Shown here: piece by piece, positions 36,551 to 39,426 of the stretch
Layout of the letters: each line of letters starts with the position of its first letter
Position numbering within the stretch: position 1 is the stretch's first letter
DNA from: Thermoflexus sp.
GTDB taxonomy: Bacteria > Chloroflexota > Anaerolineae > Thermoflexales > Thermoflexaceae
DNA length: 44,102 nucleotides
Assembly: GCF_025055495.1 (NCBI RefSeq)
Contig: NZ_JANWXB010000130.1
Location: 1 to 44,102 of the forward strand
Direction: 5' to 3'
Notes under the pieces: generated by a model
Databases searched by the model: none
Told to the model about the DNA's origin: nothing
The model's input: the letters and a program-made list of their open reading frames with translations, nothing else
Translations under genes and position numbers: made by a program

Positions 36551-37411
36551 ATGAGGATCCGTGGCACAACCCGTCTGGTTGGTCTTTTGGGATGGCCGGT
36601 GGCGCACAGTCGAAGCCCCCAGATGCACAACGCCGCCTTCTCCGCCCTGGGCCTGGATTGGGCCTACGTGCCCCTGCCGGTGGCACCTCCCGCGCTGGAG
36701 GATGCCATGCGAGGGTTGCGGGCCATGGGCTTCGCTGGGGCGAACGTCACGGTGCCGCACAAAACCGCTGTGATCCCCTATCTGGACGAGATCTCCCCGC
36801 TGGCCCGGGCGATCGGGGCGGTGAACACGCTGCGGGTGGTGGATGGGCGATGGATCGGGGAGAACACAGATGTAGAAGGGTTCCGCCGCGCCTTGGCCGA
36901 GATCGGGCTGTCCGCCCGAGGACAGGCTGTGGTCGTTCTGGGGGCCGGCGGGGCCGCCCGATCTGTCCTGGCTGCCCTGGCGATCGAGGAGGCCCGAGAG
37001 ATCTTCCTGATCAACCGAAGCTACGAGCGGGCTGCCCGCTTGATCGCCGAACTGAGCGAAACCTTCCCTCCAGCAGGCCTTCGTCTGCCGCCGGTTCATG
37101 TGCTCCGCGTGGAAGAGCCTCCTCCTGAAAGCGTCGCCCTGCTGATCAACACCACGCCGGTCGGCATGGCGCCGGAGATCGAGGCATCCCCATGGCCGCC
37201 GGATCGTCCATTCCCCTGGGGCCTGCAGGGCGTCATCGATCTCATTTACGAGCCCCCGCGAACCCGCCTGATGACCCTAGCGGAGGCCGCTGGGATCCCC
37301 GCCTTCAATGGCCTGGGGATGCTCCTCCACCAGGGAGCGATGGCGTTCACCCTGTGGACAGGCCAGGAAGCTCCCCTTGAGGTGATGCGGACAGCGATCC
37401 TGGAACAGTGA
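36551..37411 (+). CDS. aroE: Shikimate dehydrogenase
   Basis: NADPH-dependent reduction of 3-dehydroshikimate in aromatic amino-acid synthesis, 286 aa. Substrate-binding 'AHSRSPQMHN' (about 18-27), catalytic Lys in 'NVTVPHKT', 'GAVNTL', the NADP loop 'VLGAGGAARSVLAAL' and the terminal 'GLGMLLHQGA' are all present. GGAGG lies 4 nt before the ATG. No other shikimate gene is adjacent. Confidence 0.94.
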   Translation: MRIRGTTRLVGLLGWPVAHSRSPQMHNAAFSALGLDWAYVPLPVAPPALEDAMRGLRAMGFAGANVTVPHKTAVIPYLDEISPLARAIGAVNTLRVVDGRWIGENTDVEGFRRALAEIGLSARGQAVVVLGAGGAARSVLAALAIEEAREIFLINRSYERAARLIAELSETFPPAGLRLPPVHVLRVEEPPPESVALLINTTPVGMAPEIEASPWPPDRPFPWGLQGVIDLIYEPPRTRLMTLAEAAGIPAFNGLGMLLHQGAMAFTLWTGQEAPLEVMRTAILEQ

Positions 37412-37501
37412 TCTTTTCCGTTGATTCACACCAGGATTGGGGGAGCAGGCCTGGTGGATACCCAGTTGCAGTAAACCCCGGATCGCCCCCCTGGAGGGCT
37501 T

Positions 37502-37540
37502 TCGAGGGCCGGGCGGGCCCTCGAGGACAGTCCGCCCGGC
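37502..37540 (+). terminator. Alternative hairpins after aroE
   Basis: TCGAGGGCC (37502-37510) can pair with 37516-37524; GCCGGGCGG (37508-37516) can instead pair with 37532-37540. The stems share bases and exclude each other. The second is followed by TTCTCCGTTTCTTC. It may be the aroE terminator or an attenuator. Confidence 0.45.
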
Positions 37541-37652
37541 TTCTCCGTTTCTTCACTGTGCCTTTCTCGAGATCGTTCAAAAGCCCAATCCTGCCCTGCA
37601 GAAGATGCGCAGGGATAGCCAATTGCGTTAAAATAAAGTGATTAAGGGATCA

Positions 37653-37717
37653 GCCCCCTGGACCGGTCCCCCTATCCTTTCAGGGGCAGGTCATCCCAAC
37701 GGATGGCCCCAGGGGGC
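37653..37717 (+). ncRNA. Candidate structured leader RNA (three-way junction)
   Basis: P1: GCCCCCTGG (37653-37661) with 37709-37717. P2: CCCCT/AGGGG (37669-37673 with 37682-37686). P3: GGTCATCC (37689-37696) with GGATGGCC (37701-37708), one wobble, loop CAAC. P3 abuts P1 directly, as for coaxial stacking; junctions are 7, 2 and 0 nt. It ends 38 nt before the ATPase start. I cannot match it to a known riboswitch class. Confidence 0.45.
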
Positions 37718-37755
37718 ATGCCCTGAATCCTGATGGGAGGAGCGTCAGCATAAGG

Positions 37756-39426
37756 ATGACACAATTTCAGATCACAGACGACCTGGAAGCGTTGCTAAGT
37801 GTTCTGCCTCCGGACATCGCCCGGGCTGTGCGGGATCGCAATCGAAATGAGGCCTTGCTGGAGGTCGTCCTGGACCTGGGTCGATATCCGGAGGCCCGAT
37901 ACACCGATGGTGAGGCAACTCTTTGCCCCCGTGAAGTGACCGAAGCAGACCTGCAATATGTCGTCTCCCGCATCGGGGAGTTCGACGCCGACAACCGAGC
38001 GGGGATCCAGCGGACCCTGCACCGGATCAGCGCGATCCGCAACCGACGCGGCAACATCATCGGGCTCACCTGTCGGGTCGGCCGCGCGGTCTACGGCACC
38101 ATCGAGATCATCAAAGACATCATCCTCTCCGGGAAGAGCATCCTCCTGCTGGGCCGCCCGGGCGTCGGCAAGACGACCATGCTGCGGGAGGCAGCGCGGG
38201 TCCTGGCCGAGCACAAGCGGGTGATCATCGTCGACACCTCCAACGAGATCGGCGGCGATGGGGACATCCCCCATCCGGCGGTCGGCCGCGCGCGCCGTAT
38301 GCAGGTCCCCAAGCCCAGCCTCCAGCACGAGGTGATGATCGAGGCGGTGGAAAACCATATGCCGGAGGTCATCATCATCGACGAGATCGGACGTGAGCTG
38401 GAGGCAGTGGCGGCCCGCACGATCGCCGAGCGCGGGGTGCAACTGATCGCCACCGCCCACGGGAACACCTTGGAGAACCTCCTGATGAACCCCACCCTGT
38501 CCGATCTCGTCGGCGGGATCGAAAGCGTCACCCTTTCCGACGAGGAGGCCCGGCGACGCGGCACCCAGAAGACCGTCCTGGAGCGGCGGGCGCCGCCCAC
38601 CTTCGATGTGCTCATCGAGATCCAGGACCGCCAGCGGTTGCTGGTCCATCACGATGTGGCGGCCAGTGTGGATGCGCTCCTGCGGGGCCAGCAGCCGGAC
38701 GTGGAGTTGCGCTATCGAGATGAGGAGGGACGCATCCATATCGAGAAGCCTCGCTTCCGGCGGGCGGTGATGGTGGGGAAATCTCCCCTTCCCTTCTGGC
38801 GCGGGGAGATCATCTCCACCACGCCGATCGCCGCCGGGGAACCCCTACCCGCCCCGGCACGGGTGACCGTCGAACGGGTGGGGACCTTCGAGGAGGAAGA
38901 GCTGGAGGAAGCCTCATGGCAGGCCCCGCCGCTCCCTTCCGGCAACGGGCCGCGGCGTCCCCTGCGGGTATATCCCCTGGGCCTGGCCCGGAACCGCCTT
39001 CAGCGGGCGGCCAGCGTCTTCGGAACTCCCATCCAGTTCGTAGAGCAAATCGGGGAAGCCGATGTGGTGATCACCACCAAGGCCCACTACCGCCGCCATC
39101 CTCGGGTGCTCCACGAGGCAGAAGGCCGGGGGATCCCGATCTACGTGGTGCGCTCCAACACCGTGACCCAGATCGAAAGCTGTCTGGCGGATATCCTGAA
39201 CTTGACGCCGGCAGAGGGAGAAGAAGAAGATCGCCTGGCCCAGGCGCTGGAAGAAGCCGAGGCGGCCATCCGGAAGATCCTCCACGGGGAAGCGAAATAC
39301 GTCGATCTATCCCCCCAGAACGCGTATATCCGGCGCCAGCAACATCTCCTGGCCCGCCAGTATAACCTGATCTCCCACAGCTACGGGAAGGAGCCGAACC
39401 GCTACGTTCGGATCTACGCGGAGTGA
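37756..39426 (+). CDS. R3H-domain AAA ATPase (Ycf45/SpoIIIAA-like)
   Basis: Nucleic-acid-binding ATPase, 556 aa. The N-terminal part resembles SpoIIIAA/Ycf45 ('LSVLPPDIARAV'), Walker A 'GRPGVGKTT' is at residues 133-141 and Walker B 'EVIIIDEIG' has D209/E210. 'TAHGNTLENLLMNPTLSDLV' is the conserved sensor region. A middle region ('ADVVITTKAHYRRHPRVL') and a C-terminal R3H domain with R526-x3-H530 follow, implying single-stranded nucleic-acid binding. The cellular role is unknown; homologues occur in cyanobacteria, plastids and Chloroflexota. The mRNA leader is predicted to be highly structured. Confidence 0.88.
   Translation: MTQFQITDDLEALLSVLPPDIARAVRDRNRNEALLEVVLDLGRYPEARYTDGEATLCPREVTEADLQYVVSRIGEFDADNRAGIQRTLHRISAIRNRRGNIIGLTCRVGRAVYGTIEIIKDIILSGKSILLLGRPGVGKTTMLREAARVLAEHKRVIIVDTSNEIGGDGDIPHPAVGRARRMQVPKPSLQHEVMIEAVENHMPEVIIIDEIGRELEAVAARTIAERGVQLIATAHGNTLENLLMNPTLSDLVGGIESVTLSDEEARRRGTQKTVLERRAPPTFDVLIEIQDRQRLLVHHDVAASVDALLRGQQPDVELRYRDEEGRIHIEKPRFRRAVMVGKSPLPFWRGEIISTTPIAAGEPLPAPARVTVERVGTFEEEELEEASWQAPPLPSGNGPRRPLRVYPLGLARNRLQRAASVFGTPIQFVEQIGEADVVITTKAHYRRHPRVLHEAEGRGIPIYVVRSNTVTQIESCLADILNLTPAEGEEEDRLAQALEEAEAAIRKILHGEAKYVDLSPQNAYIRRQQHLLARQYNLISHSYGKEPNRYVRIYAE

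Follow-up and report, generated by a model that had tools for sequence, protein, structure and literature searches.

The E. coli ompA leader, a structured 5' untranslated region (UTR) that acts as a stabiliser, carries stable stem-loops near the mRNA 5' end followed by the ribosome-binding region. The autoregulatory ribosomal protein leaders collected in Rfam are short junction RNAs located directly 5' of genes for nucleic-acid-binding proteins, and the riboswitches among the Rfam cis-regulatory families are compact multi-helix leaders. Few cis-regulatory RNAs have been characterised from the Chloroflexota. The leader RNA described here, found in a 44,102-nucleotide stretch of DNA from a member of the genus Thermoflexus (class Anaerolineae, phylum Chloroflexota) and referred to below as the window, shares these features and, as in riboswitches, contains one invariant internal loop. 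It differs from the ompA leader, to which its sequence is unrelated, in forming a three-way junction rather than separate hairpins. It differs from ribosomal protein leaders in having no Rfam match, in its confinement to one clade and in that no mimicry of a known target is shown, and from riboswitches in having no family match, a single locus per genome, a hypervariable arm and junction strand, and no terminator-type expression platform. The element belongs to no named family and would resemble structured 5' UTRs in its action.

The element lies between aroE, which ends upstream of the leader at 37411, and a gene for an ATPase with a C-terminal R3H domain (Table 1). Orthologues of this R3H ATPase are present in 57 of 60 relatives and the gene is held by eight of nine Thermoflexus genomes, with orthologues at 91-96% identity on named Thermoflexus contigs; a literature search returned nothing on the leader and nothing on the R3H ATPase. 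Downstream of aroE an inverted repeat at 37509-37539 (CCGGGCGG...CCGCCCGG) is followed by a T-rich stretch and could be the aroE transcription terminator, in which case the R3H-ATPase gene would be left with its own promoter. In the matching gap the related genome G005 has a GGGCG...CGCCC hairpin, and none is obvious in G001. Since a promoter scan found no sigma-70 consensus pair, the conserved TAAAAT is treated as a putative -10 region, from which transcription would very probably start at about 37641-37646, a few bases 5' of the outermost helix, P0. No terminator-like site was found, making transcription attenuation unlikely.

Table 1. Coordinates of the leader element and adjoining features in the window
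Feature	Position	Strand	Description	Source
-10-like TAAAAT	37629..37634	+	found in all 8 Thermoflexus leaders; TAGAAT in one relative; conservation starts here	
P0 5' strand AGGG	37645..37648	+	partner 37721-37724 (CCCU); flanking 37641-37643 also paired in the window sequence	
P0/P1 internal loop AUCA	37649..37652	+	faces AUG 37718-37720	
P1 5' strand GCCCCCUGG	37653..37661	+	partner 37709-37717; 97.8% of cells paired	
P2 hairpin	37669..37686	+	37669-37673 with 37682-37686; C-run/G-run arm whose length and register vary; 80% of cells paired	
P3 hairpin GGUCAUCC-CAAC-GGAUGGCC	37689..37708	+	37689-37696 with 37701-37708; 100% of cells paired	
P1 3' strand CCAGGGGGC	37709..37717	+	partner 37653-37661; evidence shared with P1 5' strand	
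P0 3' strand CCCU	37721..37724	+	partner 37645-37648	
Shine-Dalgarno GGGAGGAG	37735..37742	+	13 nt upstream of ATG	
Downstream gene	37756..39426	+	556 aa ATPase: Spore_III_AA-like AAA, PF25516, C-terminal R3H domain	Pfam, NCBIfam

A first-pass annotation had drawn three nested helices of 9 (P1), 5 (P2) and 8 bp (P3) at 37653-37717, and refolding gave an exact match, reproducing the CAAC loop on P3, the 7-nt J1/2 strand, the absence of any nucleotide between P3 and P1 and the end of the element 38 nt upstream of the ATG. The drawing had overlooked an enclosing helix, P0, and the internal loop between P0 and P1, and although the 5 bp of P2 are present in the window, their exact pairing is not kept among relatives. 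The minimum free energy of the 65-nt stretch is -39.2 kcal/mol, with a z-score of -3.53 and none of 200 dinucleotide shuffles as good, values to be read with the stretch having been picked because of its folding; z is -2.0 with 151 nt of context and -3.4 for the 93-nt element. In each of the five leaders that carry the element, P0 has a predicted pair probability of approximately 0.9-1.0 at 37 C, and in silico both P0 and P1 are still formed at 70 C. Directly 3' of P1, at 37718-37726, the sequence AUG CCC UGA, with AGGGGG just before it, is invariant in all five leaders; it is a possible two-codon upstream open reading frame (Met-Pro-stop), or may merely be the P0 strand plus internal loop.

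The shape of the element is kept in five related hot-spring bacteria, whose leaders are 80-100% identical, and five of the eight Thermoflexus genomes with the gene retain the block from TAAAAT (37629) to the ATG (37756). These five form one clade, and the other three (G003, G004 and G006) its sister clade. For G001, G002 and G005, BLAST alignments run out where aroE ends (37403-37417), restart at 37618-37629 near TAAAAT and continue into the gene, and in three of four comparisons the intergenic DNA just 5' of the block could not be aligned. The 117 nt preceding the ATG have diverged by 3.4, 8.5, 11 and 23% in the four comparisons, against 12, 32, 35 and 36% at the four-fold sites of the gene, so that in three of the four the leader diverges some 3-4 times more slowly. 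The distance from P0 to the ATG is constant among the five. Variable sites number 5 of 42 in the P0, P1 and P3 stems versus 15 of 21 in loops and junction strands (Fisher p 4e-6, with sites treated as independent). P0 varies at none of its 8 positions and the AUCA/AUG internal loop at none of 7, no other unpaired nucleotides of the element being invariant, whereas all 4 positions of the P3 tetraloop and 6 of 8 in the P2 loop vary. P2 is hypervariable, appearing in G001 as a shifted 7-bp version, as is the J1/2 strand. Forcing P1 and P3 to form costs 0, 0, 0, 0.6 and 2.8 kcal/mol relative to the optimum of each species. These data indicate that the stems, the internal loop and the ribosome-binding site are under constraint in the five species.

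Direct covariation is thin because only five sequences are available. Within the three-way-junction helices there is a single clean compensatory pair, at 37659/37711 in P1, where U-A becomes A-U in G001; P3 shows two one-sided G-U changes and P0 no covariation, and one P1 pair is broken in G002. With five closely related sequences, the overall covariation score was reached by 35 of 500 column shuffles. In G001, positions 37659, 37688 and 37711 change together from U/A/A to A/U/U, involving the P1 pair and the base ahead of P3, a co-change compatible with an alternative CCUG/CAGG pairing of P1 with J2/3. A chance structure in GC-rich DNA, kept merely through close kinship, would accord with the small number of sequences and changes, with the 7% of shuffles that match the covariation and with the whole leader of G002, whose fold is no more stable than those of its shuffled versions (z -0.7). 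This account is nevertheless unlikely given the slow divergence of the leader in three of four comparisons, the unalignable neighbouring intergenic DNA in three of those comparisons and the stem versus loop contrast.

In the sister clade the leader is approximately 40 nt shorter and lacks P2, P3 and the P0/P1 internal loop. At nearly the place of P1 these leaders carry the hairpin GCCUUCAGG-5 nt-CCUGAAAGGC or a related version, separated from the -10 by 26 nt in two leaders and by 17 nt in G006, and from the ATG by 37 nt, versus 24 and 38 nt in the five-species leaders. When aligned to P1 by hand, with the 5-nt loop standing for the 47-nt P2/P3 insert, the hairpin shows two-sided changes at pairs 19, 20 and 22 (C-G/U-A twice, U-A/A-U/G-U). 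Compared with shuffles the three sister hairpins gave p 0.03, 0.18 and 0.69, clearly above chance in one of three. If the hairpin is homologous, up to two further double changes in P1 would be added, and the arrangement would suggest that P1 is ancestral and that P2/P3 were inserted or lost.

A covariance model built from the five leaders scored these at 97-117 bits, all five loci lying before the R3H-ATPase gene. Beyond these it detected no convincing copy in the genus, where the highest-scoring remaining match reached 24.7 bits (E 0.007), no copy of note in 396 Anaerolineae genomes (best other match E 0.03) and no further members among 97 more distant orthologue leaders and the three sister-species loci. 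The weak matches resemble one another only as orthologous pairs, and none is located at an R3H leader. At the gathering threshold Rfam 15 gave no match in the window, and a relaxed Rfam search produced chance-level matches only, to eukaryotic or archaeal families (E 0.2-1.1); the first-pass annotation, too, could not match the RNA to a known class. A structured leader as a class-wide trait of the R3H-ATPase gene was also considered and rejected; the mean z was -0.9 versus -0.1 for random controls, arising partly from a few unrelated inverted repeats. Approximately 115 nt 5' of the orthologue, two Anaerolineae leaders, L024 and L053, carry a very strong inverted repeat made up of units resembling GGTAGATTGGTA/TTTACCAGTTACCA, with z -8.1 and -5.6. 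These two leaders are identical in sequence, probably representing one contig in two collections, and the repeat is unrelated to the element.

GGAGGAG is found in all eight Thermoflexus species at an identical and unusually long 13-nt spacing from the start codon (37735-37755). In the window a small hairpin, CUGAUG/CGUCAG, has it in its loop. Predicted accessibility of the ribosome-binding site and AUG followed no consistent pattern between species, and a specific on/off translation switch is therefore not supported. In optimal folds the Shine-Dalgarno pairs with codons 18-19 (CCUCC), a possibility that was rejected as the native sequence was more accessible than synonymous recodings in three of four species tested. 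Reading the leader as an N-terminal coding extension was likewise rejected; 38 codons are open in frame, but lack an ATG, GTG or TTG start, and most of the G001 changes would alter the amino acid if read this way.

The proposal of a conserved cis-acting leader is supported by selection on the stems, by the conserved block running from a promoter-like -10 to the start codon and by at least one compensatory change. The element would be a cis-acting structured 5' UTR of the R3H-ATPase mRNA in one Thermoflexus clade, acting on stability or translation, a reading to which we assign a probability of roughly 55%. It occupies the same place before the R3H-ATPase gene in all five species having it, its location in the 5' UTR following from the predicted start. 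Transcription from about 37641 would make P0-P1 the 5'-terminal structure, and with a start only a few bases before P0 the RNA 5' end would be tied up in P0-P1-(P2,P3). The chief effects would be to shield the 5' end from degradation and to keep the C-rich leader packed away from the GGGAGGAG ribosome-binding site, the outcome being steady expression in a thermophile. Such 5'-end protection and ribosome-site insulation is the simplest inference from the sequences, and most likely the element does nothing more unusual than control or stabilise the mRNA of one gene in one lineage. The invariant P0/P1 internal loop is most likely where any protein contact would be made.

That loop also bears on autoregulation, in which AUCA/AUG would be the site where the R3H ATPase, or a different RNA-binding protein, binds and represses translation of its own mRNA. 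The encoded ATPase carries the nucleic-acid-binding R3H domain, the element is single copy and adjacent to its gene, and the loop holds its only invariant unpaired nucleotides; however, orthologues across the class lack the element, as do three sister species whose R3H ATPase is approximately 91-94% identical in protein sequence and whose leaders are without P2/P3 and the internal loop. We consider autoregulation improbable, and a long shot the more elaborate form of the idea, an undescribed protein-responsive leader family in which the R3H ATPase senses its own level via the P0/P1 loop, possibly with P3 switching to the start codon.

A DNA-level signal, either an operator or an extended promoter whose inverted repeats only resemble RNA helices, would account for the -10 region inside the conserved block and for GGGCATGCCC, a perfect invariant palindrome. 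It is quite improbable, as the P1 arms lie 47 nt apart, the stems stay while the loops diverge, U-A has changed to A-U on both sides of P1 and there are no further copies in the genome.

In a start-codon switch the P3 5' strand GGUCAUCC would pair with the start region GGAUGAC(C) instead of with the P3 3' strand, hiding the AUG. A 7-8 nt Watson-Crick complement is present in four of the five species, with one G-U in the fifth, and the three species without the element carry GAATG rather than GGATG. Against this, 3.8% of shuffles also contain a complement of at least 7, adopting the start-paired state costs the window sequence 12 kcal/mol and P3 would fold first during transcription, making such a switch very unlikely.

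A small-molecule riboswitch, of which, or of a protein-binding leader, the first-pass annotation had thought the compactness typical, is extremely unlikely despite the compact three-way junction and invariant internal loop, because the element is single copy in five species of one genus with no further copy in 396 Anaerolineae genomes, has variable to hypervariable J1/2 and P2, no alternative terminator and no Rfam match, and is linked to no metabolic target gene.

We know of no RNA target for the R3H-ATPase family, and protein binding by the element, if true, would provide the first. Read as a structured 5' UTR, the element is as it stands a lineage-specific regulatory detail, real but modest, that adds one well-delimited conserved leader RNA, on a widespread R3H-domain ATPase, to the Chloroflexota.
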